A stretch of 22,174 bases of DNA, taken from positions 1 through 22,174 of the IMG/VR virus record IMGVR_UViG_3300037119_003408; one strand, 5' to 3'. Origin of the DNA: a virus. The notes beneath the pieces were generated by a model, which saw only the letters and a list, made by a program, of their open reading frames with translations, made no database searches and was not told where the DNA came from. Position numbers and translations under genes: made by a program. Shown here in pieces: positions 3,110 through 21,775 of the stretch (positions within the stretch are counted from its first letter, which is position 1; each line of letters begins with the position of its first letter).

Positions 3110-3696
3110 CCGAGACGACCGCGCTCAAGGCGACATTCCCGATCGAGTGGCGCGAGCTCAACGCCGACAACAGGATCGTCGGGGGAATCGCGATCCCGTG
3201 GGCCCCCGAGACGAGCTACGTCGCGGGCACTCCGGGCGGCGAGCGATTCATGCCGGGCTCGTTGAACCGGTCCGTCAGTGCGAAGGGGACCCGCCTGAAG
3301 CTGTTCAGGAGTCACGACCACACGACCGCCATCGGAAGGCCGGTCAAGATCGACGCGCGCCATCCGGACGGCCTGTACACCGAGTGGCAGATCGCGAAGA
3401 CGCCCGCCGGCGATGCTGCGCTGACCGAGATCACCGAGGGCATGCTCGACTCGTTCTCGATCGGCTTCCGTGCGATCAAGTCGCGGCGCGGCGAAGACGG
3501 CGCCCGCGAGATCCAGGAGGCCGAGATCCACGAAGTGAGCATCCTGCCGCTCGGGGCGTACGACTCCGCCCGAGTGTTGGAGGTCAGGGCGCCCAGCCTC
3601 CGAGCCGCGGACCTCACCGCGTGGCTCGCAGCGCACCCGGTCCCGGACGTCAACCGGACGCCGCTGCCCGACCTGTACCAGTACCGCCGGCGCTAG
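3106..3696 (+). CDS. Prohead protease, HK97 type (S78/U35)
   Basis: Serine protease that cleaves the capsid delta domain and itself during prohead maturation. The 196-aa protein shows the family layout: an N-terminal strand region with VGGIAIPWAPE, the catalytic His in LFRSHDHTT (H70), and the catalytic Ser in DSFSIGFRA (S118, with S116 adjacent), followed by EIHEVSILPLGAYDSA, which carries the conserved acidic/beta segment after the active Ser. The start overlaps the portal stop (ATGA). The stop (TAG at 3694-3696) overlaps the stop of the convergent HNH gene within a CTAG. In most HK97-like phages the capsid gene follows directly; here a leftward cassette of about 1.2 kb intervenes. Substrate is inferred to be the capsid protein at 5065. 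Confidence 0.94.
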   Translation: MTETTALKATFPIEWRELNADNRIVGGIAIPWAPETSYVAGTPGGERFMPGSLNRSVSAKGTRLKLFRSHDHTTAIGRPVKIDARHPDGLYTEWQIAKTPAGDAALTEITEGMLDSFSIGFRAIKSRRGEDGAREIQEAEIHEVSILPLGAYDSARVLEVRAPSLRAADLTAWLAAHPVPDVNRTPLPDLYQYRRR

Positions 3697-4427
3697 GCGG
3701 TCCTTGCAGGTCGCCCAAAACGGAACTCGACGAGCAGCCGAGGGCCCTTGCTCTGGTTGTGGTACTGGCAGAGGTAGTCGAGATTCCCGATCGCGTACCG
3801 GCCCTTGCGTGATACGGGCTGGCGATGGTCGAGGTGCTCGGCGGGCCCCTCACAGCCCGACATCGCGCAGCGTCCGCCCTGACGGACCTTCAACCGATGG
3901 AGATCACGATTGGTGACGCTGTAGGTTCCGTTGGCGAGCTGGAATGCGCGCCGACGGTGCGCCCAGCGCCGCTTCTGCGCTCGGTAGTGTTCGGGGTTCG
4001 TCTCTAGGACCTGGTTCAGGCGTGCACGTTCGCGGGCGATGATCGCCTCTCGGTGCGCCGCGCGGTACTTTCGCTGACGGTTTCGCACACGCTCCGCGTA
4101 TTCGGGATCGGTCGCGAGTCGCAGACGCTCACGTTCGTTGCGCGCCTCTCGATTCACCTCACGGCTGACACGCGCCTTGGCCCGCTCGCCTTCCGGATCG
4201 GTCAGCATCCGCCGGCGATAGTTCCTGCGCTGCGTCTCACGATGACGCTCGGGATTGGCCTGTATCCATGCTCGGGATTCAGCACGGTGAGGCTCAGGAT
4301 TCGCTGCACGTCGCTGCCGCCGAGCGATCGAACGGCATTGTCGGCAAGAACCACCCTGCCGCGCATCGGGCACGGTCAGGTCATGGAAACCCTTGTAGCA
4401 AAGGCCGTCAGGGCGAGGAGCGGGCAT
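3693..4427 (-). CDS. HNH endonuclease with long basic helical region
   Basis: A 244-residue leftward protein with a C-terminal HNH nuclease domain: two Cys at 187 and 192, the His/Asp-His motif HLDH (198-201), a central Asn in AIGNLDYL (215), and the last Cys/His/Asn cluster CQYHNQSKG (220-228). This beta-beta-alpha-metal fold nicks or cuts DNA. The N-terminus has CYKGFH...SCRQC, probably a small zinc-binding knuckle, and residues about 35-170 are Arg/Glu-rich, repetitive (ANPEPHRAES, ANPERHRETQ, TDPEYAERVR, TNPEHYRAQK) and probably helical; these look like repeated NPExxR units that may contact DNA. It ends nose-to-nose with the prohead protease. Position between protease and capsid and opposite strand suggest a homing-type or mobile endonuclease rather than a packaging factor. 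Its start overlaps the stop of the HTH gene (TGATG). Confidence 0.9.
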   Translation of the reverse strand: MPAPRPDGLCYKGFHDLTVPDARQGGSCRQCRSIARRQRRAANPEPHRAESRAWIQANPERHRETQRRNYRRRMLTDPEGERAKARVSREVNREARNERERLRLATDPEYAERVRNRQRKYRAAHREAIIARERARLNQVLETNPEHYRAQKRRWAHRRRAFQLANGTYSVTNRDLHRLKVRQGGRCAMSGCEGPAEHLDHRQPVSRKGRYAIGNLDYLCQYHNQSKGPRLLVEFRFGRPARTA

Positions 4428-6229: not shown

Positions 6230-6562
6230 GTGGCTGGTCACCCCGGCACGCTGCCCCTTCGCCTCTACCGGGGTGACTCCTACTCGTGGCAGGTCCGCGC
6301 CTGGTCGGACGCTGACCACACCCAGCCCGCGGACCTCACCGGCGTGACGGCAGCCGCCGCGATCGCGGGCGACATCGGCGGCGTGATCGCGATCGACTGC
6401 GCGGTCACGCTGCCCAACCTCATCGACCTCGACCTCGCCGCCGCGTCGTGGGACGGCGTCGTCAACCCCAGCCGCTGGGACCTCCAGCTCACCTACGCCG
6501 ACGGCCGCGTCTACACCATCCTCGCGGGCCCGGTGACCGTCCAGGACGACGTCACGCCGTGA
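6230..6562 (+). CDS. Small beta-rich virion accessory protein
   Basis: A 110-aa protein with the pattern [18 protein letters not shown] near the N-terminus, a central Leu-TG-V segment with alternating hydrophobics, and [18 protein letters not shown] followed by [10 protein letters not shown] at the end. This 'YRGD ... WDLQ ... DG..T...G.v.v..dvT' pattern recurs in small phage beta-sandwich proteins encoded next to collagen-like fibres, often described as fibre-associated or BppU N-terminal-like; I place it in that group by pattern, not by a search. It starts one base after the capsid stop and its own stop overlaps the collagen-like gene start (GTGA at 6559-6562), suggesting stoichiometric co-translation and a shared structure. 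It could anchor the fibre to the capsid or tail. Confidence 0.75.
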
Positions 6563-7536
6563 CCACGTTCGTGGACGTTGTCCTCGAGGTGCCGCCGGTG
6601 TACCTCGACGTCCAGCAGGCCGGCGGCCCGCCCGGGCCGCAGGGCCCCGCGGGTCCGGAGGGTCCGCCAGGCGCCGACTCCACCGTCCCCGGACCCCCGG
6701 GCGCAGCGGGGGCGCAGGGACCACAGGGCCCCCAGGGGCCGACCGGCGCGACGGGCGCGGCCTCCACCGTGCCCGGGCCGCCGGGGCCGACGGGCGATCC
6801 CGGGCCAGCCGGCGCGGACGGCGACGATGGCGCGCCCGGAGCGCAGGGTCCAGCGGGTGCCACCGGTTCGCAGGGCCCGCAGGGCATCCAGGGGCCGCAG
6901 GGCCCCAAGGGCGACACCGGGGCCACGGGCCCGACCGGTCCCGAGGGTCCGGCAGGGTCCGGGGGCGGGGCGATCGAACCCGGGCGCATTCATGGCATGG
7001 CGTCGGCGTGGTGGTACATCCCGGGCAACCAGGTTCGGGGCACGTCCACGCGCGAGATGACCCTCAACTACCTCTTCTACTTCCCGTGGTTCGTCGAGGT
7101 GCCCTACCCGATCGACCAACTGGGCGTCGAGGTCACGACGGCGGCGGCGGGCGCGTTGCCGCGCCTGGGCATCTACAACGCCGACACGAACTGGCAGCCC
7201 TCGACGCTGTTCCTCGACGCGGGCACGGTCGATGCATCGACCACCGGGCTCAAGACCAAGGCGGTGTCGGTCACGCTCCCGGCGGGCCGGTTGATCGGCG
7301 TGATCGTGTCGAACATCAGCTGCAACATCCGGCTGATCAAGACCGATGGGGCCGGGATGAGCGGCGTCGGCATCGGCCCCAGCGTCGGCACGAACCCGTC
7401 CGCCTTCGAGTGGTACCGGCCGTTCACGTACGCGCCGTTCCCGGCGTCGGGGACGGGCATCCCGTGGTCCGGCATCGCGTACACCACGGAGGTCTTCCAG
7501 TCGGGCCTCCTCGTGCGCAGGGTCGCACCGACGTGA
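6559..7536 (+). CDS. Collagen-like fibre/head appendage protein
   Basis: A 325-aa protein from GTG 6559 with three parts: a short N-terminal anchor (1-21, [20 protein letters not shown]), a collagen Gly-X-Y region (about 22-134), and a C-terminal beta-rich domain (about 140-325). The collagen is interrupted twice by the same step, [11 protein letters not shown] (38-48) and [11 protein letters not shown] (66-76), where Gly-to-Gly spacing is 7 instead of 3. The C-domain has WWYIPG, the strand [20 protein letters not shown], and [19 protein letters not shown], a pattern shared with C-terminal domains of phage fibres. It should form a trimeric fibre. Being directly downstream of the capsid, it may decorate the head; a tail fibre is the alternative. 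Start and stop both overlap neighbours as GTGA. Confidence 0.9.
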
Positions 7537-8736: not shown

Positions 8737-9207
8737 ATGCCCGCCATCGTCAACAAGCTCGGCCCGGGGACGCTATCGGTCGGCTCGACCGGCACCGAGG
8801 TCGACTTCACCTGCCAGGTCACGGCTGCCCGAGTTGAGTGGAGCGCCGACGCAGAGGATGCCGTGCAAGTCCTCTGCGGCGACGAGGTGCCCGGAGCGCG
8901 CACCTACAGCGCCACCCTCACCGCGACAATCTTCAACGACCTCGGCACGACGGCCGGCATCGTCGAGTTCTCGTGGACCAACAAGGGCACGACCTACCCG
9001 TTCGTGTTCCAGCCCTCGCAGACCACGGGCGTGAAGCAGGTGACCGGCAACCTCATCGTCGACCCCATCAGTGTCGGTGGCGACGAGGTCGGCCAGAACA
9101 TGACGTCGGACTTCGAGTGGGCGATCGTGGGCGACCCGATCCTCGAGACGGCGACGGCGACGGGGTTCGCGGCCGACGAGGGCACGAGCCGCAAGAAGGC
9201 CGCGTAG
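8737..9207 (+). CDS. Major tail (tube) protein, probable
   Basis: A 156-aa protein with a strong ribosome site (GAGGAGG, 6 bases before ATG). It is mostly beta: alternating strands such as TLSVGSTGTEVDFTCQVTAA, GARTYSATLTATIFNDLG, GIVEFSWTNKGTTYPFVFQP, and KQVTGNLIVDPISVGGDEVG, with a FEWAIVGDP strand near the end, as in single-domain siphovirus tube subunits. The strong ribosome site fits a protein needed in many copies. It sits directly before the gp10-like gene and the frameshifted chaperones, the usual location of the tube gene. Its TAG stop overlaps the next GTG by one base. The family call rests on size, secondary-structure pattern and position. Confidence 0.75.
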   Translation: MPAIVNKLGPGTLSVGSTGTEVDFTCQVTAARVEWSADAEDAVQVLCGDEVPGARTYSATLTATIFNDLGTTAGIVEFSWTNKGTTYPFVFQPSQTTGVKQVTGNLIVDPISVGGDEVGQNMTSDFEWAIVGDPILETATATGFAADEGTSRKKAA

Positions 9208-9587
9208 TGCCCAACGTCGGCGTCGAGGTCGAGGGCGGCAAGGAACTCCGCAAGAGCCTCAAGAACGTCGAGGACGGGCTCAAGGATCTGCAGGCCGCCC
9301 ACGCCGCCGCTGCGGGCATCGTGGCCGCAGCTGCGCCGTCCTACGCCCCGCTGCGCACGGGCAGGCTGGCGGGTTCCATCCGCGGCTCGGGTGCCAAGGC
9401 GGCCGCGACCGTCCGCGCCGGCGGCGCGAAGGTCCCCTACGCCGGCGTCCAGGAGTACGGCTGGCCGCGCCGCAACATCCCGGCCCAGCCGTTCCTCGTG
9501 CCCGCCGCCCACGACACCGAGGGCGAATGGCGCCTGGTGTACGAGGCGCGCGTCGAGGAGTTGATCGACAAGGTGCACGGTGCCTGA
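9207..9587 (+). CDS. HK97 gp10-like head-tail joining protein
   Basis: A 126-aa protein from GTG 9207, overlapping the tube stop by one base (TAGTG). It has the gp10 signature: an N-terminal strand (VGVEVEGGKELRKSLKNV), a long helix (DLQAAHAAAAGIVAAAAPSY), the turn APLRTGRLAGSIRGS, strand ATVRAGG, and VPYAGVQEYGWPRRNIPAQP followed by FLVPAAH. In related phages these proteins work at the neck or in tail completion. It is usually encoded between connector and terminator, upstream of the tube gene; here it follows the tube. Its end overlaps the chaperone start. Fold assignment is confident, exact role less so. Confidence 0.85.
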   Translation: MPNVGVEVEGGKELRKSLKNVEDGLKDLQAAHAAAAGIVAAAAPSYAPLRTGRLAGSIRGSGAKAAATVRAGGAKVPYAGVQEYGWPRRNIPAQPFLVPAAHDTEGEWRLVYEARVEELIDKVHGA

Positions 9588-9897
9588 GATCGAGTTCCCG
9601 AGGCTCGTCGCGCGGGTCCAACTCTCGGATGGGCGCGTCCTCGAGGCGCGCATCCTCAACACCGACTACCTGCGCTGGGATCGGACCCGGGCGAAGCACG
9701 GCTGGCCCGCGGCGAGCGATGCGCACAACTTCGCGGCGACCTTCTACGCCTGGTCGGCGCTGCGGCGCGAGGGCGAGATCGCCGAGTCGGTGACGTGGGA
9801 GGAGTTCTCCGACCGGATGTGCGAGTACGTCGTGGTGGACCGGGAGGCCGGAGCGAACGGCGTGGGCCCTACCCTCGAGGATCCTGGGCCCGCATGA
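9580..9897 (+). CDS. Tail assembly chaperone, upstream (G-type) product
   Basis: A 105-aa protein from GTG 9580 (8-base overlap with the gp10-like gene). The sequence has a small beta start (EFPRLVARVQLSDGRVLEAR), an aromatic/charged helix around TDYLRWDRTRAKHGWPAASD and the pattern HNFAATFYAWSALRREGEI plus VTWEEFSDRMCEYV, typical of chaperones that coat the tape measure during tail assembly. Near its end the 0-frame contains the slippery heptamer GGGCCCT (9864-9870), read as codons GGC CCT. A -1 slip gives an extended protein continuing into the next ORF. Without slipping, translation stops at 9897. Confidence 0.85.
   Translation: MPEIEFPRLVARVQLSDGRVLEARILNTDYLRWDRTRAKHGWPAASDAHNFAATFYAWSALRREGEIAESVTWEEFSDRMCEYVVVDREAGANGVGPTLEDPGPA
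9864..9870 (+). promoter_or_regulatory. Candidate -1 programmed frameshift site GGGCCCT
   Basis: A heptamer of exact X-XXY-YYZ form, in the correct phase (G GGC CCT) within the upstream chaperone frame. A one-base backward slip reads GGG CCC, then continues from T9870 as YPRGSWARMIVEIAVVTHTP through to the stop at 10010. The fusion would have 97 + 46 = 143 residues. Position, phase and partner ORF all fit the tail chaperone frameshift known from lambda G/GT and many phages. Confidence 0.75.
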
Positions 9898-10010
9898 TCG
9901 TCGAGATCGCGGTCGTGACCCACACCCCGCCGTCTGCGTGGTGGGACGAGGACGAGGCGACCATCGCGACCGCGCTCGAGGTCCTCGACCGCCTCCACTC
10001 GCGGGACTGA
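9894..10010 (+). CDS. Tail assembly chaperone, downstream (T-type) extension
   Basis: An ORF in the -1 frame relative to the upstream chaperone. If begun independently at ATG 9894 (ATGA overlap) it would be only 38 residues, MIVEIAVVTHTPPSAWWDED and onward; more likely it is translated mainly as the C-terminal extension reached from the slip at 9864-9870. The motif VVTHTPPSAWWDEDEATIAT followed by ALEVLDRL matches the T-type downstream half of chaperones, in which a His-hydrophobic-Pro-Pro segment and a Trp/Asp-rich turn precede a helix. The tape measure gene follows 3 bases later, as expected. Confidence 0.75.
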   Translation: MIVEIAVVTHTPPSAWWDEDEATIATALEVLDRLHSRD

Positions 10011-10013
10011 CGG

Positions 10014-11189
10014 ATGGCCGGCTCGGCGATCCTCGCGATCAAGATCATCGCCGACGCCACCGACGCGGTCGGCGGGCTCGCCAAGACCGGCGAGGGCATC
10101 GACGGCCTCGACGGCAAGAGCAAGGGCCTCATGGGCTCGCTCGGCGGCGTCACCAGCATGCTCGGGCCCGCGGCCCTCGCCGGTGCCGCGGTGGGCGCCG
10201 CCGTCGTCATCGCGGACCTGACCAAGGCCGCGGCCGAGGACCGTGCCGAGCAAGAGAAGCTGATGACCGCCTACGAGAACGTGGGCATCGGGATCGCGGA
10301 GGCGACGGCCGCGACCGAGCTGGCGATCGACGCCGGCGCGGAGAAGGCGTTCTCGGACTCCGAGGTCCGCGAAGGGCTGACCTCGCTCATCACGGCGACC
10401 GGCGACGCCGCGCAGGCGAACGCGCTCCTTGCCCAGGCGCAGGACATCGCCCGGGCGGCGGGAGTCCCGTTAGCCCAGGCAGCTGATGCAGTCGCTAAGG
10501 CGACGGCAGGTCAGGACGCCGCGTTACGCAAATTGTTTCCCGGCATGGCGAAGCAGGAGAACGCGGCCGCCACCCTCACCGAGGCCACCAAGCTCTCGGC
10601 CGGTGCGGCCGACGACTACGCGGCCAGCGCCGAGGGGATGCAGAAGCGCGGCAGCGATGCGTTCGGGGAATTGGGCGAGGAAATAGGTGGTGCCTTCCTC
10701 CCCATCATGGATGAGCTGATGCCCCTGATCGGGCCCATCGTCGAACTCCTCGGCGAGCTGATCAAGGCGGTGTTGCCGCTCCTGAAGCCCGCGATCCACC
10801 TCGCGGTCGAGGGGATCAAGATCCTGATCGCCGCCCTCAAGCAGGTCATGGAGTGGGTCGGCAAGGTCATCGACGGCGTAAAGAGCGTCATCGACTGGGT
10901 CGGCAACATGATCGACATCGCGACCAACGCCAAGAACGCGGTGGAGGGCGCGCTCGACCAGATCACGCCGTGGTCGGTCGTGCCGCCAGTGGCACCCGCG
11001 CCCGTGGTGGCAGGGTTTGCGGGGCGCTCCGCCCGGGCGATGGGCCCGCTGGCGGGTAGCGTCACCAACGTCAACGTCAACGTCACCTCGGCGGACCCGG
11101 GCGAGGTCATGCGCGCCGTCCGCCGCTGGGCGCGCAGCAACGGCGGCAGCGGGCCGTTCACGCGAGGGCTGGACCGGAGCACGGCGTGA
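10014..11189 (+). CDS. Tape measure protein (short)
   Basis: A 391-aa protein, short for this family but in the canonical position after the chaperones. It starts AILAIKIIADATDAVGGLAK, followed by a Gly-rich segment and hydrophobic GPAALAGAAVGAAVVIADL (51-69), long Ala/Glu helices (AEDRAEQEKLMTAYENV; AAQANALLAQAQDIARAAGV), a central hydrophobic stretch (PLIGPIVELLGELIKAVLPL and the following IKILIAAL), and an Ala/Pro/Val linker before a C-terminal VTNVNVNVTSADPGEV strand seen in many tape measures. These proteins set tail length and form a transmembrane channel during DNA entry. At roughly 0.15 nm per residue (a general rule for helical tape measures) a tail of about 60 nm would result; this is an estimate. 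The stop overlaps the next start (GTGA). Confidence 0.88.
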   Translation: MAGSAILAIKIIADATDAVGGLAKTGEGIDGLDGKSKGLMGSLGGVTSMLGPAALAGAAVGAAVVIADLTKAAAEDRAEQEKLMTAYENVGIGIAEATAATELAIDAGAEKAFSDSEVREGLTSLITATGDAAQANALLAQAQDIARAAGVPLAQAADAVAKATAGQDAALRKLFPGMAKQENAAATLTEATKLSAGAADDYAASAEGMQKRGSDAFGELGEEIGGAFLPIMDELMPLIGPIVELLGELIKAVLPLLKPAIHLAVEGIKILIAALKQVMEWVGKVIDGVKSVIDWVGNMIDIATNAKNAVEGALDQITPWSVVPPVAPAPVVAGFAGRSARAMGPLAGSVTNVNVNVTSADPGEVMRAVRRWARSNGGSGPFTRGLDRSTA

Positions 11190-14383: not shown

Positions 14384-14604
14384 ATGTCGCGGACGGCGAG
14401 CTCGTCCCGACCTTCGTCCCCGAGGACTCGGCGTGGGTGGGCGCGATCTTCGAAATGCGCCGGGACACGGGGCCCGTGCTTGTCGCGAAGTGCGGTCACA
14501 CCCACGGCACGATGCGCCAGGCGACCGCGTGCTCGACCGCCGAGCTGGCCTTCGCCAGGCGCGTCGTCGAGCTGTCCGAGCTTCACCGGGACATCGAGCC
14601 GTGA
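14380..14604 (+). CDS. Small hypothetical early protein with Cys/His motif
   Basis: A 74-aa protein starting at ATG 14380, overlapping the previous stop (ATGA). It contains an acidic N-terminus (NVADGELVPTFVPEDSAW), VGAIFEMRRDTGPVLVAKCG, then HTHGTMRQATACSTAELAFA, and a final helix ARRVVELSELHRDI. Cys-Gly-His-x-His and a later Cys could make a small metal site. No family is recognised. It is followed by ~120 bases of C/G-rich sequence with no visible gene before the exonuclease start at 14726. Confidence comes from codon use and coupling. Confidence 0.62.
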   Translation: MNVADGELVPTFVPEDSAWVGAIFEMRRDTGPVLVAKCGHTHGTMRQATACSTAELAFARRVVELSELHRDIEP

Positions 14605-14725
14605 CGGCTCCCCGGCCCCGGCCCGATCATCCCGGCCGTCCGGCCCTCGAGCCCGCCATCCCGGTGGTCGGCAGACAGGACTCCGCAGGGCGAGCCGGAC
14701 TTCGGGCCGGGACCCGGGCGCCACG

Positions 14726-15652
14726 GTGATCCGACAGGGCACCCCCGCCTGGCACCGGGCCCGCCGCGAAGCGGTGTCCTCCACCGACATCGGCGTCCTG
14801 CTCGGCCTGAGTCCGTACAAGTCCGAGTGGGACCTCGCGGCCGAGAAGCTGGGCTGGATCGAACCCGTCGACCAGACCCTGCCGATGCGGATCGGGCTCG
14901 CGCTCGAGCCGCTCATCCGCGAGGAGTACGAACACCAGACCGGCGAGCGGCTGCGGCGCGTCCACACCCTCGCCCGCCATCCCAGCATCGAGTGGGCGGT
15001 CGCATCGCCCGACTACACCGTGGTCGGGCGGCCGTGGCTGGTGGAGGCCAAGTGGAGCCTCGCGCGGCGCTGGTCCGACGGGCTGCCGCAGGACGTGGAA
15101 GCCCAGGTGCAATGGGCCCTCGGCTGCACCGGTCGCAAGCGCGCCGACGTGGCCGCGCTGCTGGGCGGATCCCGCCTCGAGGTGTTCGAGGTGGCCTACG
15201 ACGACGCCCTGTTCGAGGGCCTGCTCGACATCGCGGCCGACTTCCGCGGGCGCCTTGCGTCCGGCGGCCCGTTCGCCGAGACGTCCGATTCGCTCAAGCG
15301 CCGCTACCCGTCCGACGACGGATCCGAGATGCACGCCGACCTCGCGACCATCGACGCGGTCACCACGCTCATCGACGTGCGCGGCCGGCGCAAGGCGCTG
15401 GAGGCCGACGAGGAGCGGCTCGAGGGCCTCATCAAGGCGTCCATGGCGACCGCCTCGACCCTCGTCGGCCCCGGCTGGAAGGTGTACTGGAGGCGGACCA
15501 AGGACCGCGAGGAGGTGGACTGGAAATCCGTTGCGGATGGATTGCTGCGACAACTGCCCGAGACGGAGCGCGATGCGCTCGTCGGGATTGCCACGACGGT
15601 CAGGGCTGGCTTCCGGCCGTTCCGCGTCGTGGTCGAGGGAGGTTCGGAATGA
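14726..15652 (+). CDS. YqaJ-family recombination exonuclease
   Basis: A 308-aa 5'-3' dsDNA exonuclease of the PD-(D/E)xK superfamily, related to lambda exonuclease, which makes single strands for the annealing protein at 16530. Signature segments: GTPAWHRARREAVSSTDIGV followed by LLGLSPYKS (opening helix and loop), the acidic GLALEPLIREEYEHQTG (E61), ASPDYTVVGRPWLVEAKWS with D96 and E107-x-K109 of the catalytic core, and QVQWALGCTG with Q127, a core residue of this family. Start GTG 14726 is the first possible start in frame that leaves the conserved N-terminus intact. It ends in an ATGA overlap with the ParB-like gene. Confidence 0.94.
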   Translation: MIRQGTPAWHRARREAVSSTDIGVLLGLSPYKSEWDLAAEKLGWIEPVDQTLPMRIGLALEPLIREEYEHQTGERLRRVHTLARHPSIEWAVASPDYTVVGRPWLVEAKWSLARRWSDGLPQDVEAQVQWALGCTGRKRADVAALLGGSRLEVFEVAYDDALFEGLLDIAADFRGRLASGGPFAETSDSLKRRYPSDDGSEMHADLATIDAVTTLIDVRGRRKALEADEERLEGLIKASMATASTLVGPGWKVYWRRTKDREEVDWKSVADGLLRQLPETERDALVGIATTVRAGFRPFRVVVEGGSE

Positions 15653-16533
15653 CGATCGGTACTACACCAGACGTTCGTGGTCCGCTATCCAAGGAGCGCC
15701 CACCGCTGACCCGCGCTTCGATTGTCAATCATCCGGCAGGACTGCCGATCCGCGTCGGATTCGTGCGGGCAGACAGCATCGTCGTCGACCGCTCGTACCA
15801 GCGCGACGAGCAGCAGCGCCGTATCAATGACATGGCCGGTCGCTGGGACGATCAGAAGGCCGGCGCGGTCATCGTCTCCGATCGGGGCGACCGACGCGTG
15901 ATCCTCGATGGTCAGCAGCGCGTCATGGCGGCCAGGATTGCTGGCGTCGTTTGGCTTCCAGCGGTGTTCCTCGATGTCGAGGATGTACCGACCGAGGCTG
16001 ATCTCTTCGTCCGTATCAACAAGGACCGGCGCTCGTTGACGCCCATGCAGCTTTTCAAGGGCGAGCTCCGCGCCGGCTACGTCGAGGCGCTCGAGATCGA
16101 CGAGACGGTCCGGAGGCACGGCTTCCATGTTGCAAAGGATGCCGCGAACGGGATCGGCTCTATCAGCGCGCTTAAGACGATCCATGCCCTCGGTTCCCTC
16201 GACGGGACACTGACGACCATCATCGAGGCATGGCCCGTTCAGGGTACGAGGGACCGCTTCACTCGCGAAATCCTTATCGCTGTTGGATCGTTCCTGCGTC
16301 ACTACCGGAAAGCTGACAGAGAGCGGCTTGCAAGGATGATGGGCCAGCTCACGCCCGAGCAGGTCACGACGGCCTTGCTCGCGTCTACCGGCAAAAGCCG
16401 CTCGGCCAGCATCGCTGGGCCTACGGCCCAGGTGAACGTGGTCGTGGATATCTACAACAAGAACCTCCGTTCTGGTCGGCTCAAGCCGTTGGAGCCGATG
16501 GCGCGCGTGCCGAGCGACGAGGCGGTGTCGTGA
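15649..16533 (+). CDS. ParB/DGQHR-like nuclease-fold protein
   Basis: A 294-aa protein of the ParB/sulfiredoxin superfamily. Visible signature: VRADSIVVDRSYQRDEQQRR (about 39-58), a helix, VIVSDRGDRRVILDGQQRVM (74-93, with the DGQQR box), then DLFVRINKDRRSLTPMQLFK. In this superfamily the DGQ(H/Q)R box binds or turns over nucleotides and can contribute nuclease activity. The C-terminal half (about 145-294) is helical, including GSFLRHYRKADRERLARMMG and STGKSRSASIAGPTAQVNVV. Sandwiched by ATGA/GTGA overlaps between exonuclease and annealing protein, so it is probably part of the recombination/replication unit. Actinophage homologues are often called ParB-like nucleases; what this one does is unknown. 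Confidence 0.86.
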   Translation: MTIGTTPDVRGPLSKERPPLTRASIVNHPAGLPIRVGFVRADSIVVDRSYQRDEQQRRINDMAGRWDDQKAGAVIVSDRGDRRVILDGQQRVMAARIAGVVWLPAVFLDVEDVPTEADLFVRINKDRRSLTPMQLFKGELRAGYVEALEIDETVRRHGFHVAKDAANGIGSISALKTIHALGSLDGTLTTIIEAWPVQGTRDRFTREILIAVGSFLRHYRKADRERLARMMGQLTPEQVTTALLASTGKSRSASIAGPTAQVNVVVDIYNKNLRSGRLKPLEPMARVPSDEAVS

Positions 16534-20267: not shown

Positions 20268-20708
20268 TTACCGCGTGGCGGCCCGATTGCGGTGGTAGGC
20301 CGCCAGCGTTCTGATTCGATGGCATTCGCGGCAGGCGCGGCGACCCGGTTCGCGCGGATGCCCGTACTTGCAGAAGGGCTTCGGCTCGCGGTACGGGAAG
20401 CCGCGTCGGACGTTCTCGCCCCGGGTCACGACTTCCATGTGGCCCGGGTTCACGCATGCGCGATTGCGGCACAGGTGATCGATGACCATCTTCGGGCGCA
20501 CCGGTCCGTGCTCGAGGAAGTAGGCCAGGCGGTGGGCCCGTTCGGTGACGGGGGCCTTGAACGTGCCGAAGCCCATCATCCCGTAGCCGCTGCCGTCGAT
20601 CGTGCCGTGCCACGGCCAGCAATCGTCCGGCCCGCCCTTGTCGACCTTGGACCAGTAGCGCTCCTGCCACGGGCCCTGCGATCGGTACTGCCCGGGGTTC
20701 TCAGCCAT
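20268..20708 (-). CDS. HNH endonuclease (I-HmuI/HNH_3-like), leftward
   Basis: A 146-aa protein from ATG 20708 on the minus strand. The N-terminal segment YWSKVDKGGPDDCWPWHGTI followed by DGSGYGMMGFG and the helix ERAHRLAYFLEHGPV is the usual opening of HNH_3 homing-type endonucleases. The core is MVIDHLCRNRACVNPGHMEV with DH (77-78), N87 and H90. The end carries FCKYGHPREPGRRACRECHR, a zinc-binding tail. Such enzymes nick phage DNA and spread into homologous sites. It is convergent with the zinc-ribbon gene and divergent from the peptidase gene, only 20 bases apart. An upstream in-frame reading to 21266 is only chance open frame over the peptidase gene. Confidence 0.92.
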   Translation of the reverse strand: MAENPGQYRSQGPWQERYWSKVDKGGPDDCWPWHGTIDGSGYGMMGFGTFKAPVTERAHRLAYFLEHGPVRPKMVIDHLCRNRACVNPGHMEVVTRGENVRRGFPYREPKPFCKYGHPREPGRRACRECHRIRTLAAYHRNRAATR

Positions 20709-20728
20709 ATTGCACAGGTTAGCGCATA

Positions 20729-21775
20729 GTGGCCGTCTATCGTGCGGCGCCAGTCTCGCAACGAGACGGTTCGCCATTGCAGTCCTCGAATTGTCGCATG
20801 GCCTCGATCGCGTGCGGCCTGGACTACGAGTCCGCGGGCATCCAGACCTCGAGCGGCGCGGACATGCGGGCCCGCCAGTCGGACCAGCAGGGCGGCACCG
20901 ACTCGGGCGATGCGGCCGAGGCGTGGGCCTCCTACGGCCAGGCGCTGCGTATCCGCGACGGTGAGACATTCGACGACGCACGGGCCGATCTCGTTGCTGG
21001 GCGGCTCGTGCACCTCGATGTGTGGGCGGCCTCGATGGCACCCGCCGGTTGCCCGTCGGGAACCGGGCAGTACGGCCACACCATCGCGGTCGCCCCCGAG
21101 CAATCGGGCACGCGCTGGCTGGTCTCGGACCCGTGGTGCAGTCCACCGAAGTGGGCGTGGATCGAGGAGGTGCTGCTGCGCGAGGCGTCCGAGACGTGGG
21201 GCGGCATGTGCTACGGCCAGGCCACCTCGGGCCGGGGCTCGATCGCCGAGTCGGTCCTGCGCGCACTGATGCGCCTGGCGGCCAAGCGGCTCATGTCGCA
21301 GTACCGTCCGGATGCTCCCGCCTCAGTGCCTCCTTCCAGTGACACGGGCGGGAGCGCCGGCCGGATCATGTTCACCACGACCGGCGCACCGACCGCCGAG
21401 ACCGAGGAGGTCGACATGCCGATCAATGCGGCACCGGGTCTCGTGACCGGCATCCGGGCGCGGGTGGCCCAGGGCGTGGACTGGTTCAAGGACGCCAACC
21501 TCACCCAGCGTGGCGGCTCGATGTCATCCGATGCGGATGTTGTGTACGTCGGCGCACCCGTGGGCGAGACCGTCGAGGGTGGCAGCTATGCCGTCCAGGT
21601 GAACACCGGCTCCATCTACTCCGACGGCGTGGTGAGGCCCACGATCATCTACCTCGCCACCTCGGATGCGGATACGTACAGCGTGCCCCTGCCAGGGACG
21701 GGCGAGGTGGATGAGGCGATCGACAACCGCGATGCCGAGTGGCGTGAGTGGCTGCTCGATGGTGCACCCGGGTGA
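20729..21775 (+). CDS. C39-like cysteine peptidase, candidate lysin or virion protease
   Basis: A 348-aa protein from GTG 20729. The N-terminal ~165 residues resemble papain-like C39 peptidases: SSNCRMASIACGLDYESAGI with catalytic Cys22, a central DMRARQSDQQGGTDSGDAAE, GQYGHTIAVAPEQSGTRWLV with His117, and SDPWCSPPKWAWI with Asp134. A low-complexity linker (about 165-230) leads to a C-terminal beta-rich domain (VAQGVDWFKDANLTQRGGSM through YLATSDADTYSVPLPGTGEV), SH3-like in appearance and possibly cell-wall binding. This layout suits an endolysin or tail lysin that digests peptidoglycan peptides; a virion-internal protease is the alternative. No holin is adjacent. The stop overlaps the HNH start (GTGA). 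Confidence 0.72.
   Translation: MAVYRAAPVSQRDGSPLQSSNCRMASIACGLDYESAGIQTSSGADMRARQSDQQGGTDSGDAAEAWASYGQALRIRDGETFDDARADLVAGRLVHLDVWAASMAPAGCPSGTGQYGHTIAVAPEQSGTRWLVSDPWCSPPKWAWIEEVLLREASETWGGMCYGQATSGRGSIAESVLRALMRLAAKRLMSQYRPDAPASVPPSSDTGGSAGRIMFTTTGAPTAETEEVDMPINAAPGLVTGIRARVAQGVDWFKDANLTQRGGSMSSDADVVYVGAPVGETVEGGSYAVQVNTGSIYSDGVVRPTIIYLATSDADTYSVPLPGTGEVDEAIDNRDAEWREWLLDGAPG

Follow-up and report, generated by a model that had tools for sequence, protein, structure and literature searches.

How is the second member of an overlapping gene pair expressed when it lies in another frame and ends just ahead of the tape measure gene? This question is raised by a tail gene locus in the IMG/VR virus record IMGVR_UViG_3300037119_003408, a stretch of 22,174 bases that was analysed whole and is referred to as the window. 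The window carries a siphophage head-tail module made up of genes for terminase, portal, capsid, major tail protein, an HK97 gp10-like protein and a tail assembly chaperone, followed by a short open reading frame (ORF) in the −1 frame and the tape measure gene. A preliminary description of this DNA had proposed that the −1 ORF is reached by a programmed −1 frameshift within the chaperone gene, at the heptamer GGGCCCT. Comparison with related loci strongly supports a programmed shift at this place, to which a probability of about 0.92 is given, but the element that the relatives share is the tetramer C_CCT. The features on which the argument draws, all on the forward strand, are as follows.

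8737–9207 (+): major tail protein (phrog_4574, E-value 1.3e-36)
9207–9587 (+): HK97 gp10-like or tail completion protein (Pfam HK97-gp10_like, E-value 0.0016; phrog_5, E-value 1e-15)
9580–9897 (+): tail assembly chaperone, frame-0 product ('G'-type, 105 aa), with a GTG start and TGA at 9895–9897 (phrog_6889, E-value 8.5e-18)
9842–9853 (+): Shine-Dalgarno-like stretch, a candidate upstream stimulator that is suggestive only (GGGAGG at 9842–9847, GGAG at 9850–9853)
9864–9870 (+): full heptamer G_GGC_CCT, the form found in this phage
9867–9870 (+): putative core slip motif C_CCT; in relatives the CCT is kept in 114 of 124 loci, the preceding C is enriched and changes on the tree are few
9870–10010 (+): −1 frame extension ('T'-type, 46 codons from TAC), with TGA at 10008–10010 and homology in relatives
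9871–9897 (+): dual-coded stretch from the slip site to the frame-0 stop, where constraint tracks the −1 frame
9894–9896 (+): in-frame ATG overlapping the frame-0 stop (ATGA), not conserved and probably incidental
10014–11189 (+): tape measure protein (matches to phrog_1272 and phrog_58)

The overlapping pair is located directly upstream of the tape measure gene and downstream of the major tail protein gene, both in the window and in annotated relatives. The family phrog_6889 is of unknown function, and several GenBank relatives of the chaperone carry the label tail assembly chaperone.

The −1 frame extension in the window and its relatives

The geometry of the window is as the preliminary description had it. 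The frame-0 codons at 9862–9873 are GTG GGC CCT ACC, which places GGGCCCT in X_XXY_YYZ phase, and the −1 reading that would follow a slip (TAC CCT CGA..., from 9870) runs for 46 codons and stops at 10008–10010, 3 bases ahead of the tape measure ATG at 10014. GGGCCCT is the sole in-phase heptamer in the 102-codon overlap. However, in-phase X_XXY_YYZ sequences occur at 10 of the 2660 codons of the window genes, so that approximately 0.4 would be expected in the overlap by chance, and GGGCCCT as such is frequent, with 11 copies in this GC-rich window where 4.9 would be expected. For these reasons the heptamer alone is weak evidence and is insufficient; the significance of the putative slip site derives from the relatives.

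Viral contigs were searched for proteins similar to the chaperone and to the major tail protein, and further loci came, by similarity, from annotated phages and bacterial genomes. Loci retrieved by a slip-motif pattern were excluded from all statistics. The chaperone profile search recovered 198 loci, 125 of them with distinct junctions, and the median pairwise nucleotide identity among the loci is 50%. The extension profile matches all 125 distinct loci, with the extension in the −1 frame in 124. Homologues in which chaperone and extension are fused in one frame, named beforehand as the finding that would speak against a shift, were sought among the 125 and none was found. In the one remaining locus, L101, the extension is in the other frame, possibly through an indel or assembly error.

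Amino acid conservation moves from frame 0 to the −1 frame at CCT. Between the following codon and the frame-0 stop, residues are conserved in the −1 frame but for the most part not in frame 0, and the pattern of constraint across codon positions changes to the −1 frame at the same place. The extension consensus, GPYPxGSRARLIVEIAxATxTAPxxWWDEDDxTIATAL, matches 65 phage records (E-values down to 4e-12), with the matches starting at GPY. Modelled alone, the extension is predicted to form a compact three-helix mini-domain (AlphaFold pLDDT, the predicted local distance difference test, 96.6), the first helix of which starts before the Met of the ATG at 9894; the model of the frame-0 chaperone has a pLDDT of 89. 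The alignment used for structure prediction was built without rows from database phages. No counterpart of the extension domain was found in Pfam or PHROGs.

The ATG at 9894 had been put forward as a second route into the downstream frame. The codon is indeed present, and termination at TGA 9895–9897 with restart at this ATG would produce a separate 38-residue protein and no fusion. Such coupling would fit the ATGA overlap, which recurs in 19 of 107 loci (NTGA in 71 of 107), and the separate annotation of the second ORF in some GenBank records (Saphira gene 13, Schiebs gene 14). Against it, the corresponding codon specifies Leu in most relatives and is often CTG or CTA, with TTG, GTG, GTA and TTA also found; CTG, CTA, GTA or TTA occupies the position in most of them. 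The start codon at the overlap is not conserved, and the conserved domain does not begin there: the conserved −1 peptide begins about 10 codons earlier, with the Y, P, G, S and R of the GPYPxGSRAR block all upstream of the ATG position, as is the start of the predicted first helix. Subgroups in which the extension begins well before the frame-0 stop offer no overlap for coupling, and reinitiation leaves the conserved C_CCT unexplained. Reinitiation at ATGA fits neither the codons found at the overlap nor the place where the domain begins and was rejected as very improbable, and because the ATG is not conserved its use as a second route is unsupported. The two frames, the site, the change of constrained frame and the absence of a conserved start can all be read from the sequence and its comparison.

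The relatives also indicate that the host of this phage is probably an actinobacterium. The same chaperone is encoded in the genomes of Corynebacterium mastitidis and C. oculi, probably by prophages, and the extension profile matches both genomes. Pseudomonas phage Hadban [OR067381] has Pseudomonas aeruginosa as its recorded host, yet its tail module layout is nearly identical to that of Arthrobacter phage Adaia, and the host label or contamination is in question.

The tetramer C_CCT as the conserved signal

CCT is found at the position homologous to 9868–9870 in 107 of the 124 loci, and seven more have NNC CCT AC further upstream, because their linker is longer, which brings the number to 114; the seeming lack of CCT in these seven was an artefact of the alignment. 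The heptamers ending in these CCT codons are GGACCCT (60), CCGCCCT (11), CGACCCT (7), AAACCCT (6), GGGCCCT (3, counting the window) and others, and the relative closest to the window (82% identical) has GGACCCT. A full X_XXY_YYZ heptamer is present at just 11 of the 114 sites and is not conserved in homologues. C_CCT is common to 110 of 124 loci, in phase and placed such that the A-site tRNA could re-pair with a cognate codon. Across the aligned loci, the conserved signal is the tetramer C_CCT and the full heptamer is a local variant, so the GGGCCCT proposed earlier is correctly phased in this phage but is not the element that the family retains.

CCT otherwise accounts for few Pro codons, 7–15% in the rest of these ORFs and 12 of 190 across the window genes. 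Directly before CCT, 103 of 107 loci have C. Amino acids and codon usage would predict 72.6, and 103 was reached in 0 of 200,000 simulations, a probability that overstates independence as the loci are related. When Asp and Asn codons are omitted, C is found in 35 of 39 loci (19.2 expected). On a tree of 124 taxa, parsimony gives 7 changes at the base before CCT and 3 at the T of CCT, compared with 31–49 at other upstream frame-0 wobble positions. Since the base before CCT is the wobble position of a variable frame-0 codon and is untranslated after a slip, its conservation is independent evidence. C is exactly what tRNA-Pro requires at this position for re-pairing as CCC, and a move of tRNA-Pro from CCT to CCC is the best explanation of its excess.

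The same base bears on the suggestion that no shift is programmed here: CCC-T would be kept only because the stretch encodes Pro in frame 0 and Pro-Tyr in −1, and the extension would be a decaying pseudogene or a sequencing artefact. As this would predict, the −1 Tyr codon constrains the T of CCT, but the C before CCT is free of coding constraint. In addition, 124 divergent loci share the frame break, and protein constraint is strong on the extension, in a frame that ribosomes could enter only through a shift. This explanation is largely refuted and hardly credible.

The P-site codon separates two forms of slippage. If G_GGC_CCT acted as a canonical heptamer, with both tRNAs slipping simultaneously and P-site re-pairing essential, then both should be able to re-pair, as they can in the window and its two GGGCCCT counterparts and at the AAACCCT of six relatives. 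The predominant GGACCCT, and the many other sites with CGC, TCC, GTC or ATC in the P site, would re-pair poorly there, which makes a requirement for simultaneous slippage unlikely.

Nine of the ten loci without CCT have another slip-prone sequence within about 2 codons (GGGAAAC, GGGTTTA, GGATTTA, CGATTTA, GTTTTTT or C_CCG), and the remaining one, L134, is less clear. In loci L071 and L090 the classic heptamer GGGAAAC is found at the same place, a replacement of the site. Arthrobacter phages MooKitty, Adaia and Atraxa have GGATTTA, GGGTTTA or CGATTTA in place of C_CCT, one codon upstream, which would again be a T_TTA A-site slip with a loose P site.

The predicted sites in named phages are given below, with the coordinate of the first base of the CCT codon. 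No joined chaperone coding sequence is present in the GenBank records of the family members examined.

Decurro [KT355471], 7142 (CCT 7142–7144): GGACCCT
RRH1 [JN116822], 8295: GGACCCT
Emperor [MH271296], 9203: GGACCCT
EricDab [MK660712], 9165: GGACCCT
SallySpecial [MG812496], 8152: GGACCCT
Schiebs [MN234213], 7581: GGACCCT
Coeur [MK801723], 7977: GGACCCT
GMA5 [KR053198], 7831: GGACCCT
GRU3 [KR053197], 7894: GGACCCT
McGonagall [NC_030912], 7795: GGACCCT
Root [PQ868947], 7599: GGACCCT
SerialPhiller [OR613477], 6778: AAACCCT

Streptomyces phage Satis, which does have a joined chaperone, was set aside; its extension match has an E-value of 0.3, no site of the C_CCT type was seen, and homology is uncertain.

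Proposed mechanism and candidate stimulators

One start would give two proteins. Most ribosomes would read 9580–9897 and produce the 105-residue chaperone, while a minority would slip back one base when tRNA-Pro on CCT (9868–9870) re-pairs with CCC (9867–9869). These would then read TAC at 9870 and add the 46-residue helical domain, generating a fusion of 143 residues whose coding sequence directly precedes the tape measure gene. The predicted junction peptide of the fusion in this phage is EAGANGVGPYPR, and the predicted tryptic junction peptide in Decurro is AIDPTEAVAEDVLVDPYPAGSR. Re-pairing in the A site would be the essential step; P-site re-pairing (GGC to GGG) would be possible in this phage and optional across the family. 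We infer that the shift occurs, at some efficiency and perhaps with a stimulator, and that the products act in tail assembly like lambda gpG and gpGT.

The stronger proposal, that a small actinophage family relies on slippage of a single tRNA-Pro at C_CCU to set the chaperone ratio, with neither P-site re-pairing nor a strong downstream RNA structure, is judged to have somewhat better than even odds. If true, C_CCU slippage would be an unusual natural −1 site outside the rules for A/U-rich heptamers, and features of tRNA-Pro in actinobacteria or a Shine-Dalgarno-like stretch upstream might drive it.

There is a precedent in Escherichia coli, where C_CCU is one of six shift-prone tetramers among the Z_ZZN sequences tested, likewise with cognate A-site re-pairing (PMC4066793). 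Beyond the relatedness of the loci, several points count against a frameshift of this kind. The E. coli tetramers, C_CC.U included, shifted only with a strong stimulator (PMC4066793), a 3′ one in the case of C_CC.U, whereas the present family, whose host is probably an actinobacterium, has no conserved 3′ structure: folding of the loci revealed no conserved downstream RNA structure (z −0.20 relative to synonymous recoding), there was no convincing covarying helix downstream of the slip site among the loci, and folding of the region in the window is unremarkable (z −0.30). Four CCT sites lack the preceding C (GGGGCCT in three, TCGACCT in one), and the T of CCT is not independent evidence because it doubles as the first position of the conserved Tyr codon in −1. 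Upstream, complementarity to the 16S tail is enriched 13–22 bases before CCT (z approximately −3.9 relative to synonymous recoding), but a shuffled pyrimidine oligo scores equally.

The window carries GGGAGG and GGAG in this enriched zone. A Shine-Dalgarno stimulator is left as suggestive, because one shuffled oligo matched its enrichment. A conserved downstream hairpin (CCGGG...CCCGG, +9 to +25), attractive on visual inspection, was rejected, with a mean pairing probability of about 0.22, no excess stability and no convincing covariation.

Comparison with known systems and other genes in the window

Frameshifting in tail chaperones is textbook knowledge from lambda gpG/gpGT (PMC5009743; Xu, Hendrix and Duda 2004, as cited in PMC5009743 and PMC7302621). 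As in lambda, two overlapping ORFs precede the tape measure gene and the second is in the −1 frame, which would give a short and an extended chaperone. The present locus differs from lambda in having a gp10-like gene between the major tail protein and chaperone genes, and in place of the lambda-type GGGAAAG-like heptamers the family appears to use C_CCT with a free P-site codon. Beyond phrog_6889, no match to the chaperone was found in Pfam, PHROGs or among PDB folds, and it has no detectable sequence or fold similarity to solved tail chaperones; its best viral fold matches are uncharacterised phage proteins, and weak PDB sequence matches to nuclear respiratory factor 1 were dismissed.

The architecture is common to small-genome actinophages of clusters AN, CW and others and to RRH1 (PMC5559632, PMC7302621). 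Cluster EE Microbacterium phages such as Biscayne are likewise small-genome actinophages and have an annotated −1 chaperone frameshift with the putative slip sequence GGGAAA (PMC11749239), whereas no frameshift is annotated in the present family. Cluster AN Arthrobacter phages such as Decurro (PMC5679792, PMC5513430) are true homologues, with the same chaperone, the same −1 extension and GGACCCT. For these a frameshift was predicted in 2017, though its position was called 'not readily apparent' (PMC5679792). Among Gordonia phages a frameshift was noted for GMA2, GMA3, GMA4, GMA6, GMA7 and GTE8 but not for GMA5 and GRU3 (PMC4524720). The motif set of PRFect (PMC10885494) recognises XXXYYY and would find the GGGCCC of the window.

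Chaperone frameshifting itself is known; as far as the open-licence literature shows, the novelty lies in a site of the C_CCU type and in where it falls in small-genome actinophages (Decurro, RRH1, GMA5 and others). A candidate slip site can now be named for phages whose annotators predicted the frameshift without locating it (PMC5679792), and the missing C-terminal chaperone domain is supplied. The motif NNC-CCT-A/T could be used to re-annotate most of the 65 extension-matched phage records and similar prophages. It also raises a testable question, namely how C_CCU with a mismatched P-site tRNA would shift well enough in GC-rich hosts.

Elsewhere in the window, a 362 aa ORF at 6448–7536 (+), between the capsid and connector genes, has collagen-like and tail-fibre PHROG matches (phrog_6320, E-value 3.3e-22); it is oddly placed for a fibre and is possibly a capsid or decoration fibre. 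An Endonuclease VII/HNH-like gene at 3693–4427 (−) (phrog_1035, E-value 1.2e-15) lies in the portal–capsid interval, antisense to the structural module, and an HNH endonuclease gene is found at 20268–21266 (−) (phrog_826, E-value 9.1e-37). Downstream of the tail genes, 14384–16533 (+) includes genes for a RecE-like exonuclease (phrog_434, E-value 6.4e-52) and a ParB-like protein (phrog_1033).
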